A stretch of 53,524 nucleotides of DNA from Deltaproteobacteria bacterium. Its GTDB lineage: Bacteria > Myxococcota_A > Polyangia > JAAYKL01. A program made the position numbers and the translations under genes. Every line of letters begins with the position of its first letter. Position 1 is the first letter of the stretch. A model generated the notes under the pieces. The model was given only the letters and a program-made list of their open reading frames with translations, searched no databases and was not told the origin of the DNA. Below, one piece after another: positions 15,657 through 20,929 of this stretch. The stretch lies in assembly GCA_030621515.1 (NCBI GenBank), contig JAUXHN010000004.1:1-53524 (forward strand). Reading direction: 5' to 3'.

Positions 15657-17120
15657 CTACAGATTGTGCGGAGGCAAGTAGGGATCCTCGTCGGCGGAGT
15701 CGGTCGTTTCGGGGGCGGGGACCGGATTCGTGGATATCAGGCGCATGGGAACGAACGGAGCGAAAAAGTAAGACAAGGAACGGAAGCGCAACCCGGTGAC
15801 CACGAATGACTCCTTCGGTGATGACTCCCGGCATCTATTCATGGCGGCAAGGGCATCGCTGACGTCCTGGTATTCGCCGACAATGGAAGGCTTCCGTGCA
15901 TCCCGGTGTTTGTGAATTCCGATCTCCGCGAGCCAGTCGGCGACCAGAGCGTAAAAAATTACAAGCGTCCAGACGTCAGGGAGCAACCATAGGTGATTTT
16001 GGTGAGCCCGGACCAGGTTGTCCACAATAACCACGGCTATCAGAAAAGCGCCGCTGAGCAGGCGAGCCCGCTGCCATTGTTTTCTATCCGGCCCCGTCGC
16101 AAAGGATCTCCTCTTGCGCCAATAAAAGAGAGTCGTTGCCGGAAAGACGATCGCTGCGACGGTAGCGATGACGAATACCGTGTACCAGATTGATCCGGGG
16201 ACAAGCATCGACGACAGGGTTTCCAGAGGCGTGAGCATGAGGAAGGCGCTCAACGTGGCGGGCAACATGACCAGCATGAGGCCCACGTCGAGCGGGAGTG
16301 TTCCGCAGGTGGGCAGGGTGAAGGCGCGACCCTCTGTAAGTCGATCTCCGAAGCGAAAGAAGTGATGAATCCCAAATATCAGTCCGACGATGAGGACCGG
16401 TTCCAGCAACAACGAGAAGACGGTAACCAGACCCAATAAGAGCGCTTCTACCGCGATGGAGAGGCTATAGAGCATGTCTCCCACGAAGCCCACGGCCAGC
16501 ACCACACCGAAACCGGCGCCCACGCCGAATCGGTCGATGAGGCGAGCGGCCACAGCGAACAAAACTGTCCCCAGGGTCAGGGTCAGACAAAATAGCGGAA
16601 CAAATGGTTTGAACCCCGGCTCGAGAGTAGGGAGGGATTCCAGGTAGGTCGCGATTCCATAGCTCTGGAAAAGCGCCAGGCAAGCCCCTGCGATCAAGGC
16701 TGCCAGCCAGAGCCGTTTGCGGACAACCACGCTGGTGAGTCGTCGCCGCCTGATGGCGGGGATGATCAGCGCCACCAATTCCACAAGGACGAAGGCGACT
16801 ATGAATGGTCGCACTCCCAGGGATAGGGGTCGTGTGGTTTCTTCCAGAGAATCGCCGCTCATCGAAACAGACGGCAAAAGATCGAGAAAAGGGCTCGGTA
16901 GCCAGAATGCCGCCAGCAGTGCTCCGCCGATGAGAAAAGTGACCCCGACCCGCCTTTCGAGGGAACGGGGCCACGGCCTGCGGGGTTCCCGGCGCGGGGT
17001 CGGATCATCCTGGACCAGCTCTGCTCCGCATTCATTGCACCGGTCCAGATCTGAGCGAAATTCTGCGGGTGTACCGGTTAGTTTTCTGTGCTCGCAATCA
17101 GGATTGGGACAATAGGCCAT
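15657..17120 (-). CDS. SecY-like membrane protein with N-terminal zinc ribbon
   Basis: Protein of 487 residues. Cys4, Cys9, Cys28 and Cys31 form a probable zinc ribbon (CPNPDC...CNECG). Then come about ten hydrophobic helices. The first four resemble SecY TM1-TM4: RRVGVTFLIGGALLAAFWLPSPFLD (SecY: IPLPG), SLGVRPFIVAFVLVEL (SecY: ALGIMPYISASIIMQLL), LALFQSYGIATYLE (SecY: LAIFQSIGIATGL) and LTLGTVLFAVAARLIDRFGVGAG (SecY: [22 protein letters not shown]). The C-terminal half is strongly diverged. No ribosomal-protein or secE/secG neighbours occur. It is therefore an unusual paralogue, not the housekeeping translocase; an accessory channel or a non-transport derivative are both possible. The stop lies 10 bases from the convergent lipoprotein gene. 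Confidence 0.7.
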   Translation of the reverse strand: MAYCPNPDCEHRKLTGTPAEFRSDLDRCNECGAELVQDDPTPRREPRRPWPRSLERRVGVTFLIGGALLAAFWLPSPFLDLLPSVSMSGDSLEETTRPLSLGVRPFIVAFVLVELVALIIPAIRRRRLTSVVVRKRLWLAALIAGACLALFQSYGIATYLESLPTLEPGFKPFVPLFCLTLTLGTVLFAVAARLIDRFGVGAGFGVVLAVGFVGDMLYSLSIAVEALLLGLVTVFSLLLEPVLIVGLIFGIHHFFRFGDRLTEGRAFTLPTCGTLPLDVGLMLVMLPATLSAFLMLTPLETLSSMLVPGSIWYTVFVIATVAAIVFPATTLFYWRKRRSFATGPDRKQWQRARLLSGAFLIAVVIVDNLVRAHQNHLWLLPDVWTLVIFYALVADWLAEIGIHKHRDARKPSIVGEYQDVSDALAAMNRCRESSPKESFVVTGLRFRSLSYFFAPFVPMRLISTNPVPAPETTDSADEDPYLPPHNL

Positions 17121-17609
17121 ATCGATGACTCTATCACACCACTAATTTTTCCCCCGAGCCGATCTGAAAATTTGGAATATTCAGGCACTGTGGATCGTAT
17201 GGACAACGAGACCTGGATAAATGAAAAAGATGAACATCACAATTCTTGAGCCGGAACCATTCGAGGCTAAGCTTCCCGCCTCTGGCAGTTCCGGAATGTC
17301 GTCTTTGGAGTCGGGGGAACCAACGTTCGAAGCCGATTGGTTGGAGGAGGCGCGTCTGTCTTTCTACGGCATCACAAAGCTCTCTGTCAGGGTTTCCTCC
17401 CACAAGGCTCATTAGCCCGAACAACTCTGCTCTGGATGAAGGGAACGCGATCGGCGAAGTGATCGATGGCTTCTGGATCCTTTTTGGTGGCGGATCGCGA
17501 ATCAAGCATAACACTCGGATCTCGTGGTAAACTTCCCTTTCACCATGTAAGAAATATAGGAATACATGTTTTACTTTGATCGTTTCAGCGACCGGACAAG
17601 GAGGCATCC
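17121..17609. other. 489-base gap between SecY-like gene and tldD
   Basis: Holds the divergent promoters of the SecY-like gene and tldD plus a possible broken small gene at 17221-17530. The 157-codon minus-strand ORF (17134-17607) has Arg/Cys-rich, shadow-like composition and is not called. Confidence 0.5.
17221..17530 (+). pseudogene. Possible frameshifted small gene
   Basis: An open frame from ATG 17221 (MKKMNITILEPEPFEAKL..., 64 codons) has coding-like composition but stops at 17415. The adjacent +1 frame then continues with coding-like text (NNSALDEGNAIGEVIDGF to a TAA at 17530). Together they could be one protein of about 100 residues broken by a single frameshift near 17385-17410. I recognise no family, and the ribosome-binding site is poor, so this is tentative. 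Confidence 0.3.
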
Positions 17610-19184
17610 ATGATACACAGAATCAACAATGATGGCTGGTCACGGCGCAAGTTCCTGGCGACGTCGGCAGCCGGCGCTACCATCGCGATAGCTCCGAGCT
17701 TTCTCATCGGCTGTGGAGGACCGGCGACGCCGACGACGGGTCCGGCGGATCTATCGGGTACCTCTGGCGGCGGGTACTTCAGGAACTTCGGTGTCGACGA
17801 TCAGGTCATCGGCAAGGTACTGAACGCAGCCATGGGCAAGGGGGGCCAGTACGCCGACCTCTTCTTCCAGCACAAGGTGACCAGCTACCTGGGACTGGAG
17901 GACGGCGAGGTCAACCAGGCCTATTCCAACATCAAGCTCGGTTGCGGCGTTCGCGTGTTGAAGGGCGATCAGACCGGGTTCGCGTTCACCGAAGATCTGA
18001 GCACGGAGGCCCTTGTCTCGGCCGCCATGACGGCCGCCGTTATCGCCAACGGCCCGGCCGCGCCGCTCCTCAAGACCATCGTGCGGGTGGACGTGCCGCA
18101 ATACTACACCGTCGAGATCCCCTGGACAGACGTGGGCATCGAACGAAAGATGCCGATGCTGGCGCGCGCCAACAAGACAGCCATGGCCTACGACAAACGC
18201 ATCATCAAGGTACGCGTCTTCACCGGCGACTCCACCAGTCGTGTAATGGTCGCCAACAGCGACGGGAAGATCACGGAGGACACCCAGCCCATGACCATCG
18301 CGTACCTGACCTGCGTAGCGCAGGACGGGAAACGACGCGAAGAAAATTACTACAGCTTCGGCAAGCGAGCGGGCTTTGAGTATTACAACGACGACAGGAT
18401 GGATGAACTGGCCACCGTTGCCGCCAAGCGCACTGTCACCCTCTTCGACGCCGAGCAACCCCCGGCGGGCGAGTACCCGGTGGTGCTGGCCCCGGGCCTG
18501 TCGGGAATCCTGCTGCACGAGGCCATCGGACACGGCATGGAGGCCGACTTCAACCGCAAGGGCAAGTCGGTGTACGCAAACCGGATCGGCAAATCCATAG
18601 CGCCCGACTTCGTCACAATAATCGATGACGGCACCAATCCAAACGAGCGCGGGTCCCTCAACATCGACGACGAGGGCAACGAGTCGCAGCGCACGGTGCT
18701 CGTGGAAAACGGAATTCTGAGAAGCTACATGCACGACCGGATCTCGGCCGCCCACTACGGTGTAAAGCCCACTGGCAACGGCCGCCGGGAGAGCTTCCGG
18801 TACCCGCCTGTACCGCGAATGCGCAACACCTACATGGTCGACGGCCACCACTCCCCTGCGGAGATAATCGCTTCCGTGAAGAAGGGCATCTACGCCGAGA
18901 CCTTCACCAACGGCCAGGTGCGCATCGGCTCCGGCGATTTCAGCTTCTACCTCAAGAACGGGTACGTCATCGAGAACGGCAAGCTCGGTCGCCCGGTCAA
19001 GGACGCCAACCTCATCGGCTTCGGACCGGAGGTGCTCGAAAACGTGGTGATGGTGGGCAACGACATGGAGTTGAACGTCGGAGCGGGCATGTGCGGCAAG
19101 GACGGCCAGCGCGTGCCGGTGGGTATGGGGTTGCCGACCGTAAAGTGCAACGGCATTTCCGTAGGAGGTGTGAACAATGGCTGA
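17610..19184 (+). CDS. tldD: TldD metalloprotease with Tat lipoprotein signal
   Basis: Protein of 524 residues. The catalytic core has HEAIGHGMEAD with zinc ligands His303 and His308, catalytic Glu304, and the conserved Cys495 (GAGMCGKDGQ), all as expected for TldD. TldD and TldE normally form a cytoplasmic heterodimer that cleaves unfolded peptides, for example in microcin B17 and CcdA processing. Here the N-terminus is SRRKFLATSAAGA (twin arginines 12-13) with a perfect lipobox LIGC at 32-35, so it is predicted to be exported folded by the Tat system and lipidated. The start is ATG with AAGGAGG seven bases upstream. Its stop overlaps tldE by 8 bases, so the two are coupled. Confidence 0.93.
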   Translation: MIHRINNDGWSRRKFLATSAAGATIAIAPSFLIGCGGPATPTTGPADLSGTSGGGYFRNFGVDDQVIGKVLNAAMGKGGQYADLFFQHKVTSYLGLEDGEVNQAYSNIKLGCGVRVLKGDQTGFAFTEDLSTEALVSAAMTAAVIANGPAAPLLKTIVRVDVPQYYTVEIPWTDVGIERKMPMLARANKTAMAYDKRIIKVRVFTGDSTSRVMVANSDGKITEDTQPMTIAYLTCVAQDGKRREENYYSFGKRAGFEYYNDDRMDELATVAAKRTVTLFDAEQPPAGEYPVVLAPGLSGILLHEAIGHGMEADFNRKGKSVYANRIGKSIAPDFVTIIDDGTNPNERGSLNIDDEGNESQRTVLVENGILRSYMHDRISAAHYGVKPTGNGRRESFRYPPVPRMRNTYMVDGHHSPAEIIASVKKGIYAETFTNGQVRIGSGDFSFYLKNGYVIENGKLGRPVKDANLIGFGPEVLENVVMVGNDMELNVGAGMCGKDGQRVPVGMGLPTVKCNGISVGGVNNG

Positions 19185-20505
19185 TAAAAATCTCATGGAA
19201 ATGGCTCGCAACACAGCCCTCATCGCCCGCAAGGCCGGCGCAAAAGACGCGCGTGTCTTCCTGTCCCGCTCACGGAACGTCACCCTGGAGTGGCGCGACG
19301 GAAAGATCGACAGGATTCGCGAGTCGACAAGCCAGGGCCTGTCCATCGACCTTTACGTGGAGGGACGTTACTCCAGCAACTCCACCTCCGACCTTCGCAC
19401 CGAGGCCATAGAAGAATACGTAAAGACAGCCGTGGCTACCACCAGGTACCTGGCGGTCGACGAGCATCGCAAGCTGCCCGATCCATCTCGCTACGAGGGG
19501 ATGACCACCGAGAATCTGGAACGCAGCGATCCGACGGTTTCCGACATCAGGCCCGAAGAGCGCATGGCGCAGGCAAGACAACTGGAAGAAGCGGTCAGGG
19601 CGGGTGACAAGAAAAACAAGATCGTCTCGGTCACATCCTGGGTGAGCGACACTTCGAGCATGACCGTGGGTTTCGCCACCAACGGCTTCGAGGCCACTGA
19701 GGCCGGCACCTCCTTTTCGCGCGGGGCTGAGACCTCCGTCAGGGACACCAAGGATCGCAAGCCCTCGGGCGTGGACTACGGATCGACAAGATTCCAGGTC
19801 GATCTGCCCGGGATCGAGGACCTCGGCAGGGGCTCCCTCAGGAGAGCCATGGAACAACTCGGCTCCAAACAGGTGAAGACCGACGTATACCATGTGGTCA
19901 TGGAAAACCGGGTGGCGCCTACCTTCGTGCGACATCTTCTGTCACCCCTGTCGGGAAGCTCCATCCAGCAGAAGCGCTCCTTCCTCGAGGACAAGCTCGA
20001 AAAGGAAGTGGGTTCCAAGCTGCTCACCATCAATAGCGATCCCCACCTCAAACGGGGTCTCGCCTCCACGGCGTGGGACGGCGAGGGCATGGCCACGATC
20101 AGACGGCCGATCATCGACAAGGGCGTCCTCAAAACATTTTTCATCGACACCTATTACGCCTCCAAGCTCGGCGTGGATCCCACTTCTTCCGCCAAGTCCA
20201 ACTTGATCTGGAAGCCGGGCAAGCGAAGTGCAAAAGAGATAGTCAAGGGGATGACCCGTGGGATCTACATCACCAGCTTCCTGGGTGGAAACTCCAACTC
20301 GACGACGGGTGATTTCTCTCTGGGCATCAAGGGACATCTGGTGGAGAACGGCAAGATCATTCATCCGGTGTCCGAGATGAACATGGCGGGCAACCACCTC
20401 AAGTTCTGGGTTAACCTTGCCGAGGTAGGCAACGACCCGTGGATGCACTCCTCCAACCGGTCTCCCTCCCTGATGTTCAAGGACGTGCAGTGCTCGGGGG
20501 CATAG
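19177..20505 (+). CDS. tldE: TldE/PmbA, partner of TldD
   Basis: Protein of 442 residues of the PmbA/TldE family, which lacks the HExxxH site and pairs with TldD to form the active protease. Landmarks: ARVFLSRSRNVTLEWRDGKIDRIRES (N-terminal strand region), LEDKLEKEVGSKLLTINSDPH, GLASTAWDGEGMATIRRPIIDKGVLKTFFIDTYYASKLG, and SNSTTGDFSLGIKGHLVENGKI with VSEMNMAGNHLKFW. It has no signal peptide or transmembrane segment, although its partner has a Tat signal. The ribosome-binding site GTAGGAGG is strong and lies inside the end of tldD, giving tight stoichiometric coupling. Export by hitch-hiking on the folded TldD subunit is plausible but inferred. Confidence 0.93.
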   Translation: MADKNLMEMARNTALIARKAGAKDARVFLSRSRNVTLEWRDGKIDRIRESTSQGLSIDLYVEGRYSSNSTSDLRTEAIEEYVKTAVATTRYLAVDEHRKLPDPSRYEGMTTENLERSDPTVSDIRPEERMAQARQLEEAVRAGDKKNKIVSVTSWVSDTSSMTVGFATNGFEATEAGTSFSRGAETSVRDTKDRKPSGVDYGSTRFQVDLPGIEDLGRGSLRRAMEQLGSKQVKTDVYHVVMENRVAPTFVRHLLSPLSGSSIQQKRSFLEDKLEKEVGSKLLTINSDPHLKRGLASTAWDGEGMATIRRPIIDKGVLKTFFIDTYYASKLGVDPTSSAKSNLIWKPGKRSAKEIVKGMTRGIYITSFLGGNSNSTTGDFSLGIKGHLVENGKIIHPVSEMNMAGNHLKFWVNLAEVGNDPWMHSSNRSPSLMFKDVQCSGA

Positions 20506-20530: not shown

Positions 20531-20929
20531 ATGCATCGAGAAATCATAACGCTCGCAACCAGAAATCAGCAGGAGCTGGTTGACGTTACCGTTAAGTTGC
20601 GCTCCATCGCGGCGAACCACCCTGACGCCTCTCTCATGGCGGTGTACGCGAAGGGCGCCACCGCCGCCGTGATGATCCAGGAAAACTGGGATCCAAACAT
20701 CACAACGGATATCATCAACTGCCTGACCGGACTCGTTCCACGCGGCGGTTGGCTGCACGACGCTGTGGACGGAAACGCGGACGCTCACATCAAGGCCGGC
20801 ATTGTGGGTCCCTCGGAGACCATACCCTGCGAAAACGGAGAGCTGCTTCTGTCCACCTGGCAGAATGTCTTCTTCTGTGATTTCGACGGTCCCAGGAAGA
20901 ATCGAGAGCTGGTGGTGACCCTTCTTTGA
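20531..20929 (+). CDS. yjbQ: YjbQ/UPF0047 family protein
   Basis: Protein of 132 residues, the normal length for this single-domain family. Recognised by NCLTGLVPRGGWLHDAVDGNADAHIKAGIVGPSETIPCENGEL-type sequence and LSTWQNVFFCDFDGPRKNRELVVTLL at the C-terminus. E. coli YjbQ has a weak thiamine-phosphate synthase activity in vitro and the physiological role of the family is unsettled. It follows tldE by 25 bases, with GGAAGA before ATG, and may be in the same transcript. Cytoplasmic. Confidence 0.9.
   Translation: MHREIITLATRNQQELVDVTVKLRSIAANHPDASLMAVYAKGATAAVMIQENWDPNITTDIINCLTGLVPRGGWLHDAVDGNADAHIKAGIVGPSETIPCENGELLLSTWQNVFFCDFDGPRKNRELVVTLL

Follow-up and report, generated by a model that had tools for sequence, protein, structure and literature searches.

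Introduction

Does the TldD/TldE protease work only in the cytoplasm, or does it, in some bacteria, cross the membrane and work in the cell envelope? TldD/E is widespread, little is understood of its physiological role, and studies so far have treated it as a peptide trimmer of the cytoplasm. The E. coli enzyme is active only when both TldD and TldE are present, a homodimer of its TldD is unstable, and the active site lies within a hollow heterodimer of ~65 Å whose narrow channel admits peptides N-terminus first; homodimers of TldE have been seen both in crystals and in solution (PMC5810440). The question is raised by a tldD/tldE pair on contig JAUXHN010000004.1 (assembly GCA_030621515.1) of a Deltaproteobacteria bacterium of the Myxococcota_A, in the stretch of 53,524 nucleotides that was analysed as a whole and is called here the window. 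An earlier note on this DNA had proposed that this TldD is a Tat-exported lipoprotein and that the signal-less TldE could be exported with it as a hitchhiker; Tat does carry complexes that are already folded, and the export of hitchhiking subunits is an established route (PMC10924467).

Results

The features of the locus are as follows, in window coordinates, with the evidence in brackets:

17598-17604, + strand: Shine-Dalgarno-like AAGGAGG ahead of the tldD ATG (sequence)
17610-19184, + strand: tldD, metalloprotease TldD (M103) with N-terminal Tat/lipoprotein signal (open reading frame, domain and homology matches)
17610-17711, + strand: predicted Tat lipoprotein signal peptide, residues 1-34: SRRKFLA, hydrophobic stretch, LIG (sequence; RR, F15 and C35 invariant, n = 14)
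17712-17714, + strand: codon of lipobox Cys35, predicted lipidated residue 1 of mature TldD (sequence, homologue alignment)
17715-17774, + strand: Pro/Thr/Gly/Ser-rich flexible tether following Cys35, residues ~36-55 (sequence; AlphaFold pLDDT)
18516-18533, + strand: HExxxH zinc motif HEAIGH, TldD residues 303-308 (sequence; matches E. coli H262-H267)
19092-19094, + strand: codon of Cys495, third zinc ligand, E. coli Cys454 (alignment to E. coli TldD)
19162-19169, + strand: TAGGAGGT, Shine-Dalgarno of tldE, within the end of tldD and 7 bases ahead of the tldE ATG (sequence)
19177-20505, + strand: tldE (pmbA-like), non-catalytic partner with no signal and a single cysteine near the C-terminus (open reading frame, domain and homology matches)

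The tldD frame encodes 524 amino acids, the first of which are MIHRINNDGWSRRKFLATSAAGATIAIAPSFLIGCGGPATP, and the start of the protein, MIHRINNDGWSRRKFLATSAAGATIAIAPSFLIGC, contains the sequence SRRKFLA at residues 11-17 with the twin arginines at 12-13, followed by an A/G-rich hydrophobic stretch and the LIGC lipobox with Cys35, just as the earlier note had read it. As far as the border of the conserved domain, in-frame ATG, GTG or TTG codons occur in tldD only at codons 1 and 75, and with no start in between, internal initiation cannot skip the signal. In the AlphaFold (AF2) model, residues 1-53 have a pLDDT < 50 and the fold starts at about residue 55, a disorder that fits the expectation for a signal followed by a lipoprotein tether. 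Among 14 aligned sequences, R12, R13, F15 and C35 are invariant and the linker is variable, and given that the homologues are only 49-66% identical to the window TldD, this invariance argues that the signal did not arise by chance. With the generic Tat models, the N-terminus of the window TldD falls short of the curated cut-offs (PF10518, 15.1 vs. 22.7 bits; TIGR01409, 13.1 vs. 16.7 bits); at E ≤ 1, TIGR01409 matches 7 of the 14 homologues, with a best E of 0.001, and no model in NCBIfam or Pfam names a Tat-signal TldD variant.

All three PmbA_TldD Pfam domains are found above threshold in both TldD and TldE. The alignment with E. coli TldD (5nj5) covers the window TldD from residue 70 onward (E = 1.8e-109), and the residues His303, Glu304, His308, Cys495, Glu311, Asp313 and Lys497 correspond to the zinc site and the clamp contacts of the E. 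coli enzyme, which bears out the claim that the catalytic residues (His303, Glu304, His308 and Cys495) are intact. The window TldD belongs to the same family as the E. coli-type equivalog NF008006 and is not a member of it, scoring 411 bits vs. the curated cut-off of 513. The partner TldE (442 amino acids) has neither a signal peptide nor the HExxxH motif, and its best match among solved structures is 1vpb of B. thetaiotaomicron (E = 1.1e-99, vs. E = 3.6e-51 for the E. coli protein). The 8-base overlap of tldE with the end of tldD (19177-19184), also described before, was confirmed, and the expression of the two genes is probably coupled through it.

The host assembly (4.64 Mb, 346 contigs, 96% complete) encodes one TldD and one TldE, with no second copy of either, together with TatC, two TatA-like proteins and Lsp. 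Having Tat and Lsp, and no cytoplasmic TldD with which TldE could pair, strengthens the idea of a Tat-exported TldD with its hitchhiker. The genus has two other species, each likewise with this one pair, and in at least 17 genomes of the class, the host and at least 16 relatives, the only TldD is a Tat-TldD, accompanied by its TldE. Other genomes, G003, G009, G022, G064, G015 and G080 among them, have a Tat pair plus a signal-less TldD, and the paralogous canonical TldDs of the same class lack the signal. As a separate observation, the host TatC (G000:C219:684-1919, - strand, locus L003) is a 459-amino-acid frame in which an inserted segment of ~195 residues separates Pfam TatC positions 131 and 132, and the TatC of Archangium (G142) has a comparable split of ~150 residues.

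Scanning 84,980 species genomes plus 295 Bacteroidales genomes, and reading the N-termini individually, we found about 105 Tat-TldDs from at least eight phyla, as the phyla are given in the database records: the sources are Myxococcota, Bacteroidota, Ignavibacteriales, Calditrichota, Zixibacteria, Eisenbacteria, Marinimicrobia, Planctomycetota, Aminicenantes and Gammaproteobacteria. Many of these genomes are metagenome assemblies, and the isolates include Parabacteroides, Bacteroides, Labilibaculum, Carboxylicivirga, Archangium and Polyangium; as for phage families, none was found. A TldE adjoins the Tat-TldD in 105 of 106 loci, the remaining locus ending at a contig edge, and HExx[GA]H is retained in 105/106 Tat-TldDs, with HExxxH in 0/105 of the partner TldEs. 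A strict Tat rule (RRx[FLMIVW] plus a hydrophobic stretch) picks out 99 of 170 TldDs, 1 of 157 TldEs and 24 of 1225 other open reading frames (2%), and the sole TldE so picked out has a wrongly chosen start. The TldE of L163, flagged as Tat, was rejected as read-through upstream of its start, as were the automatic Tat calls on L130 and L131, whose RR precedes the real start; L092 and L112 end at a contig edge and are signal-less only by truncation, and the Tat call on L025 is doubtful. Among the resolved pairs, none of the 105 partner TldEs has a Tat signal, which answers the question that the earlier note had put to the homologues: the arrangement of a Tat-TldD with a signal-less TldE recurs in ~105 pairs, always with the signal on TldD only. 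The lipoprotein part of the proposal is supported for the window TldD, with its LIGC and the host Lsp, and does not extend to the whole group, since a lipobox was recognised in 58 of 106 Tat-TldDs and lipidation is not universal; for the remaining half or so, with no recognisable lipobox, cleavage by the ordinary signal peptidase would be expected.

A working signal should make TldD dependent on Tat, and this expectation was tested in the Bacteroidales (n = 295), where TatC was found in 46 of 47 genomes with TldD vs. 202 of 248 without it (Fisher p = 0.002, phylogeny not corrected for). The only TatC-less Bacteroidales genome with a TldD, G367, has a signal-less one (L143). Four genomes (G103, G132, G134 and G137) have a Tat-TldD and no TatC match, and these may be incomplete assemblies. 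As a discriminator among single loci, TatC presence proved uninformative and was discarded, with TatC in 45 of 50 genomes whether TldD has a signal or not. At E ≤ 1e-30, a TldD was found in only 47 of the 295 Bacteroidales genomes, and most of the order can therefore do without the enzyme.

In a TldD tree made with FastTree, signal columns left out and its details provisional, most of the Tat-TldDs group in a single clade of 143 rows, which has strong support and includes signal-less members as well. These occur at times in the same genome as a Tat-TldD and some of them in genomes with TatC, a narrower picture than the earlier note had implied. A second, deeply separate clade of eight is all Tat (L132, L150-L153 and L172-L174); its members have the motif RR(K/D/A/R)FL and each adjoins its own TldE. 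The Tat label changes 19 times on the best tree, at least 13 of these changes being forced by starred branches, vs. ~52 for shuffled labels. The label has changed repeatedly along the tree, which does not tell gains from losses. With many clade members signal-less, some of them in genomes with TatC, export is not essential to the subfamily.

An exported TldE should resemble exported proteins, and this was tested through its cysteines. There are 2.0 cysteines per TldE beside a Tat-TldD vs. 3.9 otherwise (PGLS slope -1.4, p = 0.0005), and the TldD domain shows no cysteine difference between Tat and signal-less proteins. By independent pairs, within Bacteroidales only, or within genomes (eight pairs, two of them with truncated alignments), the TldE difference is not significant, being mostly in the same direction or flat. 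The lower cysteine content of the TldE partners is suggestive only as a sign of TldE export.

Around tldD/tldE, no gene family recurs across phyla and no conserved neighbour hints at a periplasmic substrate; the largest neighbour cluster was rejected, consisting of antisense reading frames of tldD/tldE themselves. Some local neighbours may be recorded. A YjbQ/UPF0047 gene (20531-20929, + strand) lies 25 bases past tldE and may share its transcript. At 15657-17120 (- strand) there is a 487-amino-acid multi-helix membrane protein that has a Cys-rich stretch at its N-terminus and matches SecY below threshold (31.2 vs. 32.2 bits). In four Tannerellaceae loci (L075, L080, L085 and L095), a radical SAM protein that we take to resemble the anaerobic sulfatase-maturating enzymes is encoded just upstream (~1.3 kb) of the Tat-tldD.

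Discussion

From these sequences, we infer that TldD would acquire its metal and pair with the signal-less TldE in the cytoplasm, aided by the overlapping and probably coupled genes, and that the Tat system would then export the folded heterodimer with TldE as the hitchhiker. Cleavage at LIG|C and lipidation of Cys35 would follow, and a flexible linker of ~20 residues would then hold the hollow protease to a membrane, facing the periplasm, where it would thread and trim unfolded N-termini of peptides in the way known for the cytoplasmic E. coli enzyme. Export of TldD by Tat is, in our judgement, highly probable, and if TldD takes this route, TldE would quite probably be co-exported. Without TldE, an exported TldD should be inactive, given that the E. 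coli enzyme requires both subunits and that a homodimer of TldD is unstable, and this requirement for TldE makes Tat export of the folded heterodimer the best reading. The combined reading, in which the exported TldD/E is an envelope-tethered peptide trimmer, is likely.

The alternative that survives best, though an unlikely one, is that Tat exports only TldD, as a lipoprotein, and TldE is left in the cytoplasm, idle or as a homodimer with a role of its own. TldE lacks a signal, its co-export cannot be read from sequence, and its homodimers do exist in crystals and in solution (PMC5810440), all of which would suit this reading; yet TldE is kept beside the Tat-TldD in 105 of 106 loci, it would be left without any TldD partner in the single-pair genomes, the E. 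coli activity needs both proteins and the TldD homodimer is unstable, and the TldE partners are depleted in cysteine. Rather improbable, too, is a dual localisation, with the pool split between export and the usual TldD/E work in the cytoplasm. A single pair in the host and at least 16 relatives must indeed meet any cytoplasmic need, and several other genomes hold a separate signal-less pair, but no alternative start codon precedes the TldD domain, and the many Bacteroidales genomes without a detectable TldD argue that the cytoplasmic enzyme is not generally required.

The N-terminus of TldD could also be a relic or an uncleaved membrane anchor, with the enzyme acting in the cytoplasm at the membrane, and this we consider very improbable: generic Tat models remain under cut-off and signal-less TldDs are scattered within the same clade, as such a reading would allow, but conservation of the RR, F and Cys is strict, through great divergence and from phylum to phylum, with a lipobox in about half of the proteins, and a pattern so conserved is not that of a relic. 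Least credible of all is an export of TldD through Sec, which lipoprotein signals often use, with TldD folding outside and TldE uninvolved, given the Tat-like SRRxFL motif and moderately hydrophobic A/G-rich stretch, the near-complete TldD-TatC linkage in Bacteroidales, and a signal-less TldE that would be stranded, leaving the protease shell incomplete.

The preferred reading, Tat export of the folded TldD/TldE heterodimer, may be compared with known systems. With E. coli TldD/TldE (PmbA; MEROPS M103; 5nj5), the window pair shares the three domains, the HExxxH and Cys zinc ligands and the Glu/Asp/Lys residues; the E. coli heterodimer has one active subunit, and an active heterodimer is predicted here by homology. 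In contrast to E. coli TldD, which has no signal peptide, the window TldD has an added Tat lipoprotein signal and linker. The Bacteroides and Parabacteroides relatives, like the window, pair a Tat-TldD with a signal-less TldE, and the B. thetaiotaomicron TldE homologue, 1vpb, was solved as a homodimer without TldD in a paper that is silent on export. In the periplasmic NiFe hydrogenases, formate dehydrogenases and PaoABC, the Tat signal is likewise on one subunit and the signal-less partner travels along (PMC10924467, PMC4273604); these known hitchhiker complexes are redox enzymes with cofactors, whereas TldD/E is a metalloprotease. Tat-dependent lipoproteins also have an RR motif and then a lipobox, and no TldD is among those in the papers found. 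In full-text literature, mostly without subscription papers, we found no link of TldD or PmbA to Tat or export, an earlier mention being possible, and the Bacteroides locus-tag, vesicle and secretome papers do not mention export of TldD or PmbA.

Beyond the window, we lean towards an old and widespread TldD/E subfamily that would be a Tat-exported folded heterodimer trimming envelope peptides, and the sole TldD/E in many Myxococcota and Bacteroidota. This also makes an annotation like “modulator of DNA gyrase” misleading for the Tat-tldD/tldE genes. If the enzyme is exported and lipid-anchored, its unknown substrates would sit in the envelope; if the reading is true, a non-redox protease would join the Tat hitchhiker complexes, a direct test would be possible in culturable Bacteroidota or myxobacteria, and the known cytoplasmic TldD/E would be just one of two lifestyles of the family.
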